From positions 1-39,137 of the forward strand of contig CACMYE010000008.1 in NCBI GenBank assembly GCA_902617825.1: a DNA stretch of 39,137 nucleotides, written 5' to 3'. The stretch comes from an uncultured Pelagibacteraceae bacterium (GTDB lineage: Bacteria > Pseudomonadota > Alphaproteobacteria > Pelagibacterales > Pelagibacteraceae). Below the pieces are notes generated by a model, which was not told where the DNA came from, did no database searches, and saw only the letters and a program-made list of their open reading frames with translations. This document shows, piece after piece, positions 25,587 through 30,180 of the stretch (the stretch's first letter is position 1; the number at the start of each line of letters is the position of its first letter). The translations under genes were made by a program, and so were the position numbers.

Positions 25587-26618
25587 TTAACTAAAAGCTT
25601 CGACCCATGTTCCTTGTGTAGATGCTTTAGAATATTCAGTTGCACGACCTTCAAAAAAATTCATGTGTTCTACAGCATTTAACATAGTATCTAACCATCC
25701 TAATGGATTTTTTTGAACATCATAAATAGCCTCTAAACCTAACTGGTCTAGTCTTCTATTTGCAATAAATCTTATATAGTCCTTAACATCTCTTGCAGTT
25801 AAACCTTCCATTGGACCCATTTCAAAAGCTAAGTCAATAAAAGCATCTTCGTGCTCAATTATTGTTCTACAAGCTTCATAAATTTCTTTCTTCAACTTTG
25901 GTGTCCATATTTCAGGGTTTTCGTTAATGAATTCTTTAAAAATTCTTATCATAGAATTACAGTGAAGAGTTTCATCTCTGACTGACCAAGTAACAATCTG
26001 ACCCATACCTTTCATCTTGTTATGTCTTGGAAAGTTTAACAAGATCGCAAAACTTGCAAATAACTGAAGACCTTCAGTGAATGCACTAAATACAGCAACC
26101 GTTTTAGCAATATCTTCTTTTGAATTTACATTAAAGTTTTGCATGTAATCATATTTGTCTTTCATTTCTTTATACTTCATGAAGGCAGAGTATTCAGACT
26201 CTGGCATTCCAATAGTATCCAGAAGATGTGAGTAAGCAGCCACATGAACAGTTTCCATTGAAGCAAAAGCAGTCATCATCATTAAAACTTCAGTTGGTTT
26301 AAAAACTGTTGTGTAATGTCTCAAGTAACAATTATTTACCTCAACATCAGCTTGAGTAAAAAATCTAAAAATTTGTGTTAATAAATTTTTTTCTGATTGT
26401 GATAAGTTTTTTTGCCAATCTCTTACATCGTCTCCTAAAGGAACCTCTTCTGGTAACCAATGAATTCTTTGTTGAGTTAGCCAAGCATCATAACACCAAG
26501 GATATCTGAACGGTTTATAAACAGGATTCTCCACTAGTAATCCCATTTTTTTTGGTTGAATAATTTCTTTCTTTTCTGGTTGAATAATTTCTGAATTAAT
26601 TTTTTCTGCTACTGACAT
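25587..26618 (-). CDS. nrdB: Class Ia ribonucleotide reductase, small (radical) subunit
   Basis: 343 residues from ATG 26618. This start is chosen over an in-frame GTG nine bases upstream because GAGGAG ends eight bases before the ATG; that ribosome-binding site is itself encoded by the Glu-Glu pair near the NrdA C-terminus. Di-iron ligands are Asp91, Glu122, His125, Glu182, Glu216 and His219, and the radical tyrosine is Tyr129 in E-T-V-H-V-A-A-Y, so this is the tyrosyl-radical class rather than the Tyr-less class Ic. The N-terminus carries an eight-residue tandem repeat and no ATP-cone. It overlaps nrdA by ten bases. Confidence 0.95.
   Translation of the reverse strand: MSVAEKINSEIIQPEKKEIIQPKKMGLLVENPVYKPFRYPWCYDAWLTQQRIHWLPEEVPLGDDVRDWQKNLSQSEKNLLTQIFRFFTQADVEVNNCYLRHYTTVFKPTEVLMMMTAFASMETVHVAAYSHLLDTIGMPESEYSAFMKYKEMKDKYDYMQNFNVNSKEDIAKTVAVFSAFTEGLQLFASFAILLNFPRHNKMKGMGQIVTWSVRDETLHCNSMIRIFKEFINENPEIWTPKLKKEIYEACRTIIEHEDAFIDLAFEMGPMEGLTARDVKDYIRFIANRRLDQLGLEAIYDVQKNPLGWLDTMLNAVEHMNFFEGRATEYSKASTQGTWVEAFS
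26554..26592 (-). repeat. 24-bp tandem duplication in the nrdB N-terminus
   Basis: The 15-base string GGTTGAATAATTTCT occurs at 26554-26568 and 26578-26592, exactly 24 bp apart, giving the protein repeat E-I-I-Q-P-E-K-K / E-I-I-Q-P-K-K-M. Being a multiple of three, it keeps the frame and lies in a likely flexible N-terminal tail. Confidence 0.8.
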
Positions 26619-28546
26619 GATAGGCACTCCTCGTATTCTGTTTCTTCAGTTTTGGTTGATTTATTTTTATAAACGTTCGCCAAAATATCAGTAGATTTTG
26701 CATCATTGATATTTTCAGCTCTTTGAATTGATTTTGATCTACAGTAATAAAGGCTCTTTAAACCTTTTTTCCAAGCATCAAAATGAATTTTATGAAGTTC
26801 TCTTTTATGTACATCAGCAGGTAAAAATAAATTTACTGATTGAGCTTGTGATATAAATGGAGTTCTGTCACCACTTAACTCAATAATCCAATTTTGGTTA
26901 AGCTCAAATGCTGTCTTAAATACATCTTTCTCTAATTCAGTTAAAAAATTTAAATGTGATATAGAGCCTTGATTTGTTGTTATACTTGACCAGGTTTCAT
27001 CATCATTTTTTCCATGGTTCTCTAATATTTCCTCTAAATATCTATTTTTAACGTTAAATGAGCCTGACAAAGTCTTGTGAGTGTAGCTGTTAGCTGCAAT
27101 AGGTTCTACTCCTGGTGATGCACCGCCACAAATAATAGAAATCGAAGCTGTTGGTGCTATTGCAGTTTTATTTGAGAATCTCTCTTGATATCCATACTCT
27201 GCAGCATCAGGACATGCGCCTCTTTCTTCTGCTAAATCTTTAGATGCCTGATTTACTTTAGCATCTATATCCTTAAATATTTTTTTGTTCCATGACTTGG
27301 CCATTACAGACTCTAGAGGAATTCTATTTTTTTGCAGAAATGAATGAAAACCCATAACACCTAATCCAACACTTCGCTCTCTTTCAGCTGAGTACTTTGC
27401 GTCTTTAAATTGTTCAGGAGCTTTGTTAATAAAGTCAGATAAAACATTGTCTAAAAATCTCATAACATCATTAATCATGTTAGGATCATCTTTCCATTCA
27501 TCATATTTTTCTAAATTTAAAGATGATAAACAACAAACTGCTGTTCTATCTCTGCCATCTTTATCTATTCCTGTTGGTAGAGTAATTTCACTGCATAAGT
27601 TAGATGTTTTTACTGTGAGATTAGCTAATTTATGATGTTGTGGTATTTGTCTATTAACAGTATCAATATAAATTATGTATGGTTCACCAGTTTCTATTCT
27701 GGCAGTTAATAATCTTATCCATAGATTCCTCGCAGAAATAGTTTGTTGAACTGTTCCGTCTGCAGGACTTTTTAATGCCCATTGTTCGTCTGTTTCTACG
27801 GCTCTCATGAATGCATCTGAAACTAAAACACCGTGATGTAAATTTAACGCTTTTCTATTTGGATCACCACCTGTTGGTCTTCTCATTTCTATGAATTCTT
27901 CTATTTCTGGGTGATCAACTGGAAGATAACAAGCAGCTGAACCTCTTCTTAAAGAACCTTGGCTAATTGCCATAGTTAATGAGTCCATTACTTTAATAAA
28001 TGGAATTATCCCTGAAGTCTTTCCAACTTTGCCAATTTTTTCACCAATAGATCTTAGATTGCCCCAATAACTTCCAATACCACCACCTTTAGCAGCAAGC
28101 CAAACATTTTCACTCCATAAATTTAAAATGCCACCTAAACTATCCGATGCCTCATTTAAAAAACAGGAAATTGGCAATCCTCTTTTGGTTCCACCATTTG
28201 ATAAAACTGGAGTTGCAGGCATAAACCAAAGGTTACTTATATAATTATAAATTCTTTGAGCATGAAGATTGTCATCAGCATATGAACTTGCAACTCTAGC
28301 AAATAAATCTTGGAATGATTCGTTGTGACCAAGATACCTGTCTTTCAGAGTCGCTTTACCAAAGTCAGTTAAATTTGCATCTTTTGAACGATCAATTTTA
28401 ATAATGATGCCCTTGTCATTTTGAAATAGTTCTGTTTCGTTGTTTAGTGAAAAAAGATCAGGTCTTTTATCCTTTGAAACTTCATTATCTTGAGGGGTAT
28501 ATTCAGAGACAGCTTTCTTTAGGGCCTGCGATAAAATTTTGTTCAT
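26609..28546 (-). CDS. nrdA: Class I ribonucleotide reductase, large (catalytic) subunit
   Basis: 645 residues from ATG 28546; a TTG 36 bases upstream is in frame but would add a non-conserved tail. Catalytic residues are Cys128 (P-I-S-C-F-L), Asn316/Cys318/Glu320 (N-L-C-S-E-I), Cys338 (V-C-C-L-S-S) and the radical-transfer tyrosine pair in L-Y-Y-C-R-S. The C-terminal redox tail ends C-L-S-C-Q. The roughly 90-residue N-terminal ATP-cone of E. coli NrdA (761 residues) is missing, so dATP feedback inhibition is probably absent. It reduces ribonucleoside diphosphates to deoxy forms for DNA synthesis. The upstream region holds a good promoter overlapped by an SOS box. Confidence 0.95.
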   Translation of the reverse strand: MNKILSQALKKAVSEYTPQDNEVSKDKRPDLFSLNNETELFQNDKGIIIKIDRSKDANLTDFGKATLKDRYLGHNESFQDLFARVASSYADDNLHAQRIYNYISNLWFMPATPVLSNGGTKRGLPISCFLNEASDSLGGILNLWSENVWLAAKGGGIGSYWGNLRSIGEKIGKVGKTSGIIPFIKVMDSLTMAISQGSLRRGSAACYLPVDHPEIEEFIEMRRPTGGDPNRKALNLHHGVLVSDAFMRAVETDEQWALKSPADGTVQQTISARNLWIRLLTARIETGEPYIIYIDTVNRQIPQHHKLANLTVKTSNLCSEITLPTGIDKDGRDRTAVCCLSSLNLEKYDEWKDDPNMINDVMRFLDNVLSDFINKAPEQFKDAKYSAERERSVGLGVMGFHSFLQKNRIPLESVMAKSWNKKIFKDIDAKVNQASKDLAEERGACPDAAEYGYQERFSNKTAIAPTASISIICGGASPGVEPIAANSYTHKTLSGSFNVKNRYLEEILENHGKNDDETWSSITTNQGSISHLNFLTELEKDVFKTAFELNQNWIIELSGDRTPFISQAQSVNLFLPADVHKRELHKIHFDAWKKGLKSLYYCRSKSIQRAENINDAKSTDILANVYKNKSTKTEETEYEECLSCQ

Positions 28547-28635
28547 AAATCTTGTTATATTTAGTTTATTTAACGAAAACAACTACATGTTGTAGGCGTT
28601 TTGACTTAATATACTATATAATCAGTAAATCAATA

Positions 28636-28650
28636 GAACATTTATAGAAC
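28636..28650. promoter_or_regulatory. LexA-type SOS operator (GAAC-N7-GAAC) in front of nrdA
   Basis: GAAC (28636-28639), seven bases, GAAC (28647-28650); on the minus strand GTTC-TATAAAT-GTTC. It lies in a larger 9-bp direct repeat, ATAGAACAT at 28633-28641 and 28644-28652, 11 bp apart, one helical turn. This matches the directly repeated LexA box described for alphaproteobacteria (GTTC-N7-GTTC). The seven-base spacer contains the nrdA -10 element, so a bound repressor would block RNA polymerase. Match seen; regulation inferred. Confidence 0.72.
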
Positions 28651-28669
28651 ATGATAAATTATATATCAA
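28641..28669 (-). promoter_or_regulatory. Sigma70-type promoter of nrdAB
   Basis: Minus strand: TTGATA (28669-28664), 17-bp spacer, TATAAA (28646-28641). The start site would be near 28634, giving a leader of about 88 bases before the nrdA ATG. The leader holds a short inverted repeat, ACAAC/GTTGT at 28580-28594. A TATAAT at 28663-28658 on the same strand is an alternative but lacks a -35 box. Confidence 0.65.
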
Positions 28670-28725
28670 CAAAAAAAATTAAAAAATTGGAGATAATTAA
28701 CATAAAAGAGATAAAAAATTAAGTA

Positions 28726-30180
28726 ATGACACAAAATATCAAAATTGATCCCTATGGTTTTAGAGAATATGACGCGCGATGGTTGTACGAAGAAAGCATA
28801 AATAAAGCAGGGATAGAGAATCTTGGAAAAGGTTTAGGAACTCAGATAATTAATCATACCAAAAAAGATAATCCCACAGTTATAGTTGGACACGACTATC
28901 GTTCTTATAGTGAGGAAATAAAAAAAGCTTTAAAAAAGGGTTTGATATCGACTGGATGCAATATTGAAGATGTTGGATTGTCGTTATCTCCAATGGTTTA
29001 TTTTGCACAATTTAATTTAAATTCTGATGCTGTTGCCATGGTAACTGCAAGTCATAATGAAAATGGATGGACTGGTGTTAAAATGGGTATCAAGAAAGGA
29101 TTAACTCATGCACCTGACGAGATGAAAGAGCTAAAAGAAATAACATTAAATGAAAATTTTATATTAGGCCAGGGAAGTGAAAAACAAATTAAAAATTTTC
29201 AGCAGGTTTACAAAGAAGATTTAATCAAAAATAATAAAATTAATAAAAAAATAAAAGCAGTTGTTGCATGTGGTAACGGAACTGCAGGTATATTCGCTCC
29301 AGATATTTTAAGAGGTATAGGGTGTGAGGTAATCGAACTTGATTGTAATCTAGACTGGACATTTCCAAAATATAATCCTAATCCTGAGGATTTAAAGATG
29401 CTTCATGAGATAGCAAAATCTGTAAGAGATAATAATGCAGATATAGGGTTTGGTTTTGATGGAGATGGTGACAGAGTTGGAGTAATTGATAATAAGGGTA
29501 ACGAAATATTTTCCGATAAAATTGGTTTATTAATTGCTAGAAATTTATCTACAAAACATCAGAATTCAAAGTTTGTGGTAGATGTTAAGTCTACAGGTTT
29601 GTACTCAAAAGATAAGGTATTACTAAAAAATAAATGTAATACAATTTATTGGAAAACAGGTCATTCACATATTAAAAGAAAAGTTAACTCAGAAAAAGCT
29701 TTAGCTGGCTTTGAAAAAAGTGGACATTTCTTTTTTAATCAACCATTAGGTTATGGATATGATGATGGCATTAATTCTGCAATTCAAGTATGTCATTTAT
29801 TAAATAATCAAAATAAAGAAATGAATGAAATTATTAACGAACTACCTATCACTTATCAATCACCTACCATGGCCCCTTTTTGTAAAGATGAAGAAAAATA
29901 TCAAGTGGTTGAAGCATTAGTGAAACAAGTTGAGAAAGTCAAAGATGAAAAAATAAAAATTGATAATCAAGTCATAACAGAGATTTTAACAGTCAATGGA
30001 ATCAGATTTTCTTTTGAAGATGGTTCGTGGGGTTTAATCAGGGCCTCATCTAATAAACCATCTTTAGTTGTTGTTACTGAAAGTCCAACTTCAGATGAAA
30101 GAAAGAAAGAAATCTTTAATTTTATTGATGATTTACTCCAAAAAACTGGAAAAATTGGTGATTATGACCAAAAAATCTAA
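28726..30180 (+). CDS. Phosphomannomutase/phosphoglucomutase (AlgC-like)
   Basis: 484 residues of the alpha-D-phosphohexomutase superfamily. The phosphoserine loop is T-A-S-H-N-E-N-G-W-T-G with Ser109; the Mg-binding loop is F-D-G-D-G-D-R (Asp245, 247, 249); the sugar-binding loop G-F-E-K-S-G-H follows near residue 328, and the C-terminal phosphate-binding domain has R-A-S-S-N-K-P. The G-F-E-K-S-G-H form with Glu and Ser is typical of enzymes acting on mannose/glucose phosphates rather than the glucosamine-specific GlmM. It would feed GDP-mannose or UDP-glucose synthesis. It is divergent from nrdA across a 179-bp gap and followed by a terminator. Confidence 0.88.
   Translation: MTQNIKIDPYGFREYDARWLYEESINKAGIENLGKGLGTQIINHTKKDNPTVIVGHDYRSYSEEIKKALKKGLISTGCNIEDVGLSLSPMVYFAQFNLNSDAVAMVTASHNENGWTGVKMGIKKGLTHAPDEMKELKEITLNENFILGQGSEKQIKNFQQVYKEDLIKNNKINKKIKAVVACGNGTAGIFAPDILRGIGCEVIELDCNLDWTFPKYNPNPEDLKMLHEIAKSVRDNNADIGFGFDGDGDRVGVIDNKGNEIFSDKIGLLIARNLSTKHQNSKFVVDVKSTGLYSKDKVLLKNKCNTIYWKTGHSHIKRKVNSEKALAGFEKSGHFFFNQPLGYGYDDGINSAIQVCHLLNNQNKEMNEIINELPITYQSPTMAPFCKDEEKYQVVEALVKQVEKVKDEKIKIDNQVITEILTVNGIRFSFEDGSWGLIRASSNKPSLVVVTESPTSDERKKEIFNFIDDLLQKTGKIGDYDQKI

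Follow-up and report, generated by a model that had tools for sequence, protein, structure and literature searches.

LexA-type boxes in SAR11 bacteria look like a very small SOS regulon that includes nrdAB

The nrdA upstream region

The window, here meaning the entire stretch of 39,137 nucleotides that was analysed, is a SAR11 (Pelagibacteraceae) contig that carries nrdA and nrdB on the minus strand and a divergent phosphoglucomutase-like gene on the plus strand (Table 1). The nrdA start at 28546 faces the divergent gene, which begins at 28726, across an intergenic stretch of 179 bp. Within this stretch lies a LexA-type box, separated by 89 bp from the ATG of nrdA and by 75 bp from the phosphoglucomutase start. 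On the plus strand, the box reads as two GAAC half sites (28636-28639 and 28647-28650) around the spacer ATTTATA (28640-28646), and both half sites are held within the two copies of ATAGAACAT, a 9-bp repeat with a period of 11 bp. A preliminary description of this DNA had pointed to a GAAC-N7-GAAC direct repeat at 28636-28650, to its place in a 9-bp direct repeat with an 11-bp period, and to a TTGATA hexamer 17 bp upstream of TATAAA on the minus strand; all three are exact in the sequence. A palindromic SOS box of the E. coli type is ruled out, as the halves form a direct repeat. GTTC-N7-GTTC is given as the LexA motif of Alphaproteobacteria (PMC8565304).

Table 1. Genes and candidate regulatory features around the nrdA start (coordinates are those of the window).
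Feature	Position	Strand	Basis
nrdA, ribonucleotide reductase alpha subunit	26609..28546	-	PF02867 8.8e-118; best NCBIfam model PRK09102, 1008.8 bits, over cut-off
nrdB, ribonucleotide reductase beta subunit	25587..26627	-	PF00268 1e-77; start codon provisional
Divergent phosphoglucomutase/phosphomannomutase-like gene	28726..30180	+	PF02878-PF02880
LexA-type box GTTC-TATAAAT-GTTC, GTTCTATAAATGTTC, upstream of nrdA	28636..28650	-	Sequence and conservation
ATAGAACAT twice (28633-28641 and 28644-28652), holding both half sites	28633..28652	+	Sequence
Candidate -10 TATAAA of P1, within the LexA box spacer	28641..28646	-	Sequence; TATAAT in g8
Candidate -35 TTGATA of P1, 17 bp upstream of the -10	28664..28669	-	Sequence
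Candidate -35 TTGATT of alternative P2, 2 bp downstream of the LexA box	28628..28633	-	Sequence
Candidate -10 TATTAA of P2	28606..28611	-	Sequence
Possible NrdR box 1	28611..28626	-	Partial match to the NrdR consensus
Probable NrdR box 2, core ACAACATGTAGTTG	28580..28595	-	Core conservation; overlapping palindrome arms

The frequency of the motif must be separated from its placement. GAACN7GAAC matches once in the 39-kb window against 0.49 expected, which is not significant because 39 of 100 shuffles hold at least one match. A match within the 179-bp intergenic region is notable, as 5 of 5000 dinucleotide shuffles contain the motif there. Genome-wide enrichment is absent in the window's own genome, where 7 motif sites stand against 14 for the reversed pattern; of these 7, five fall within open frames, and the remaining two are intergenic, one at nrdA and one at lexA. 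Motif counts over all genomes examined likewise show no excess over the reversed-pattern control, and the case for a LexA operator therefore rests on location.

Conservation of the box upstream of nrdA

The repeat is kept upstream of nrdA orthologues. All 80 named Pelagibacteraceae loci, the best 80 of 591 confirmed stretches, carry the box with its far end 103-106 bp before the ATG, and the spacer is TATAAAT in 77 of them. The box is also present in 30/30 loci of a single genus, the window included, at 93-111 bp before the ATG, and in 20/20 loci of a multi-genus set drawn from g1 (3), g5 (2), g6 (2), g7 (2), g8 (10), and g9 (1); the three sets may share lineages and are not additive as independent evidence. 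Eight spacers occur across these six genera (TATAAAT, TTATAAT, GTGTAAT, GATATAT, ATTATAT, ATATTAT, TATTAAT, and TAATAAT, all resembling a -10 by eye), whereas the two GTTC halves are constant in the 20 loci. Location and conservation are the non-random features of the motif, and together they rule out a chance match at nrdA.

Outside the family, the distribution is uneven. Among sister-family order-mates, whose reductase is about 1200 aa long, the box is found upstream of the reductase in 0/3; these reductases, represented by partial proteins, match B12-dependent models best. One order-mate, G037, retains boxes at lexA, recA, and umuD. The nrdA gene itself was not found in 7 of 37 genus genomes, a set that includes the window's own genome. 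A NrdA match at 1e-60 is absent in 11 listed family genomes, all more than 90% complete, and same-genus genomes of this kind include G004, G103, G114, and others. Genomes that lack such a match may use another reductase class.

In other Alphaproteobacteria, GTTCN7GTTC or GAACN7GAAC occurs within 500 bp upstream of nrdA in 8 of 28 loci (L298-L325, the best-scoring of 75 non-SAR11 genomes with a match). The same 28 upstream regions yield 1 match to the reversed pattern, and shuffles give a mean of 0.42 and a largest value of 5. The position is plausible in five of the 8 matches (G258, G336, G264, G324, and G192, the last two from one family); two others lie more than 430 bp away and one possibly falls within a coding start. 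A LexA box at nrdA may be an arrangement common to some other Alphaproteobacteria.

LexA and its other sites

The repressor that the preliminary description presupposed is encoded in the window's own genome, where lexA lies on contig 27 (TIGR00498 over cut-off). Its product combines HTH and self-cleaving S24 domains; the Ala-Gly, Ser, and Lys positions were assessed by visual inspection of the protein sequence. In this genome, GAACTTTTATAGAAC starts 39 bp before the lexA ATG, and the operator as a whole, GAAC-N7-GAAC-N7-GTAC-N7-GTTC (L009 4955-4991), ends 2 bp before it. The operator comprises two facing boxes, its four half sites being set on an 11-bp grid, and the downstream box read on the opposite strand has the recA-type form GAAC-N7-GTAC. 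Among 30 lexA loci, 21 show the four-half-site form, another 7 carry N6 as the middle spacer, and 2 have neither, one lying at a contig end and the other being a sister-family locus with the first box only. The first box is present in 29/29 testable loci; the thirtieth, L059, has 2 bp of upstream DNA. The expectation that the motif would recur at the recA and lexA promoters is also borne out at recA, in variant form, with GAAC-N7-GTAC upstream of the gene in 13/13 relatives. In the window's own assembly, which is 75% complete, recA was not found beyond a weak match below the cut-off.

Surveys of whole genomes place the sites before a small group of genes. The complete genome G012 has 13 GTTCN7GTTC sites, of which 10 are intragenic and the 3 intergenic ones precede umuD, nrdA, and lexA. 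The flanked pattern AGAACN7GWACA occurs at 163 places in 30 genomes. Sixty of these places, which are not a random draw from the 163 and in which the two lexA boxes are counted separately, were classified: 46 lie before lexA (13), umuD (10), nrdA (10), recA (9), or mraZ (4), 14 lie within genes, and 0 lie elsewhere. In G033, all five matches fall by coordinates at nrdA, lexA (two), umuD, and recA, and in another single-contig genome the six matches correspond to umuD, recA, lexA (two), nrdA, and one intragenic place. For G012 and G066, the matches with an assigned position include no intergenic site upstream of a uvr gene.

Two of these targets show features of their own. The umuD box abuts the predicted ATG (L170 1501-1516, L202), which implies either a very short transcript leader or a start codon deeper in the gene. 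Five genomes from g5, g6, and g7 carry AGAACN7GAACA about 90-145 bp before mraZ (L346 1041-1057 in G061, L290 in G064, L289 in G089, L344 992-1008 in G065, and L293 in G075), and mraZ is followed by ftsZ in G061, as identified by Pfam, and in G065, as judged by resemblance. The placement of this box suggests that division genes might be under LexA control in these genomes. From gut metagenomes, a LexA-bound site has been reported for a homologue of mraZ (PMC3998124).

Promoter anatomy and NrdR boxes

The preliminary description had taken the box spacer to be exactly the -10 of a promoter. This remains a good reading in g1 and g8, but g5, g6, and g9 do not share its -35, and a second candidate promoter starts 2 bp past the box. 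P1 (TTGATA-17-TATAAA) matches the consensus at 10/12 positions and P2 (TTGATT-16-TATTAA) at 8/12. A sigma-70 scan of 28540-28760, which requires T at -10 position 6, called no promoter, and shuffles of the region average 2.2. In g1, a TTG hexamer precedes the box spacer by 16 or 17 bp in all loci of both sets (30/30 and 80/80), so that a constant 17-bp spacing between -35 and -10 is rejected; the hexamer begins TTGA in 26/30 and 77/80 loci. In g8, TTGC is found in 10/10 loci, with TTGCAA-17-TATAAT among the loci listed. A TTG at 15-19 bp upstream of the spacer occurs in 1 of 2 loci in g7 and in none of the 5 loci of g5, g6, and g9. The promoter evidence is weaker than the evidence for the box. 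LexA at the box should hinder either P1 or P2.

Further into the nrdA leader lie two candidate NrdR boxes, partly palindromic and 31 bp apart in the window as judged by eye, a pair that the preliminary description had missed. The TATATAGTATA core of box 1 is largely kept in the genus alignment, and the box 2 core ACAACATNTAGTTG is kept in 20/20 multi-genus and 25/30 genus loci. The nrdR gene was detected in 9/10 genomes searched; the window's own assembly, 75% complete, yielded none. In the published NrdR layout, two boxes stand in tandem at a spacing of about 31-32 bp (PMC2892513). Despite the conserved box 2 core, NrdR control of nrdAB is rated only as probable because a spacing of 31 scores best in just 30/50 loci.

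Proposed regulation and alternative explanations

The site is best read as an operator for SAR11 LexA at the nrdAB promoter, through which LexA would repress nrdAB directly; we assign this reading a probability of roughly 0.88. The LexA-operator interpretation of the preliminary description is supported. We infer that LexA binds and represses at nrdAB, that the operon is induced by damage, and that NrdR binds there as well. As long as damage is absent, LexA bound as a dimer to GTTC-N7-GTTC would cover the P1 -10 or abut the P2 -35 and would keep nrdAB expression low. Accumulating single-stranded DNA would give rise to RecA filaments, which would prompt LexA self-cleavage and the joint derepression of lexA, recA, umuDC, and nrdAB. 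The supply of dNTPs would then rise along with repair and translesion synthesis, and the probable NrdR box pair would lower nrdAB expression when dNTPs are plentiful.

Published expression data from infected cells support this model indirectly. In HTCC1062 under the lytic phage HTVC027P, recA, lexA, umuD, and umuC are upregulated (PMC12753301). Between 9 and 15 h of infection, nrdA rises 3.12-8.87-fold and nrdB 2.53-5.83-fold (PMC12753301). The agreement between the genes with sites and the phage-induced genes is striking. Yet co-induction is no proof of LexA control, because many other genes rise as well, including dnaE, dnaN, dnaG, rpo genes, and excinuclease subunits (PMC12753301), and no box was seen at the excinuclease genes among the sites assigned in G012 and G066. 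The authors of that study ascribed the rise of nrdAB to phage DNA replication and its need for dNTPs and treated the rise of the SOS genes separately (PMC12753301).

The best-surviving alternative, though an unlikely one, is that nrdAB rises in infected cells through relief of NrdR repression or some other route, with LexA playing a minor part. The probable box pair in the leader, its agreement with the published tandem layout, and the occurrence of nrdR in nearly all genomes searched are in its favour, but it leaves the conserved LexA-type box unexplained, and the inconstant spacing of the pair weakens it.

A second alternative, which we consider very unlikely, assigns the box to the divergent phosphoglucomutase-like gene, with or without nrdAB as a further target. 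The box does lie between two divergent starts, slightly closer to that of the phosphoglucomutase gene, and divergent neighbours of the phosphoglucomutase type recur in several genera. In G029 (L192), however, a different gene occupies the divergent position and nrdA retains the box, which rules out the phosphoglucomutase gene as the sole target and makes nrdA the likely one; the near-constant distance from the far end of the box to the nrdA ATG in the 80- and 30-locus sets also argues against this alternative. The divergent gene is probably not a target of the box.

Least probable of all is the view that the box is simply fixed nrdA promoter sequence, a conserved -10 with its flanks, unbound by LexA: the spacer is a -10-like hexamer that is identical in nearly all of the named loci, and further parts of the nrdA upstream region are conserved as well, but the spacer varies across genera while the GTTC halves are kept even though they should be dispensable for RNA polymerase, the box persists where the P1 -35 is lost (g5, g6, and g9), and the same half sites occur with other spacers at lexA, recA, and umuD.

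Under the preferred reading of the box as a LexA operator, the LexA operators of SAR11 look like a very small SOS regulon that includes nrdAB. A bolder extension, which we hold tentatively and at somewhat less than even odds, is a near-minimal regulon of about four operons (lexA, recA, umuDC, and nrdAB, joined in some genera by mraZ-ftsZ) that would wire the supply of dNTPs directly to LexA, with gating by NrdR. Infection might trip this switch, and a lytic phage that encodes no ribonucleotide reductase might thereby gain dNTPs; the published induction of host nrdAB would then be an SOS output instead of phage-specific reprogramming.

SAR11 bacteria, which are highly abundant in the ocean, are usually regarded as weakly regulated. 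A LexA box at nrdAB in all six family genera checked would make this site one of their few switches, through which damage to DNA is linked with dNTP synthesis. The supply of DNA precursors in SAR11 is predicted to rise upon DNA damage, and perhaps upon infection by phage, which offers an alternative explanation for the induction of host nrdAB in pelagiphage infection. Class I ribonucleotide reductase requires iron. For this reason, the box at nrdAB perhaps also bears on a lexA/recA/mucA cluster described under iron limitation (PMC2864753).

Comparison with known systems

The SAR11 sites share several features with the alphaproteobacterial LexA operator, namely the direct-repeat motif, a site for lexA autoregulation, recA and umuDC as targets, and a LexA with HTH and S24 domains. 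They differ from it in the predicted direct targeting of nrdAB, in the apparently very small regulon, in the GAAC-N7-GTAC form of the recA site and the second lexA site, and in the two facing boxes at lexA. The candidate NrdR pair resembles that of known nrd operons in its two partly palindromic boxes upstream of nrdA and in the presence of nrdR in relatives; unlike those pairs, the SAR11 boxes lie downstream of the P1-predicted start and share their promoter with a LexA box.

The mechanism of the LexA box is ordinary, whereas nrdAB as a direct LexA target appears new; a search of the open-access literature found no report of it in SAR11. Damage induces nrdAB in both E. coli and V. cholerae, reportedly outside the LexA regulon, and EMSA with V. 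cholerae LexA showed no binding to a LexA-like sequence close to the nrdA promoter (PMC5963079). SAR11 contrasts with both, in that its nrdAB carries a LexA box through which damage induction is predicted to act.
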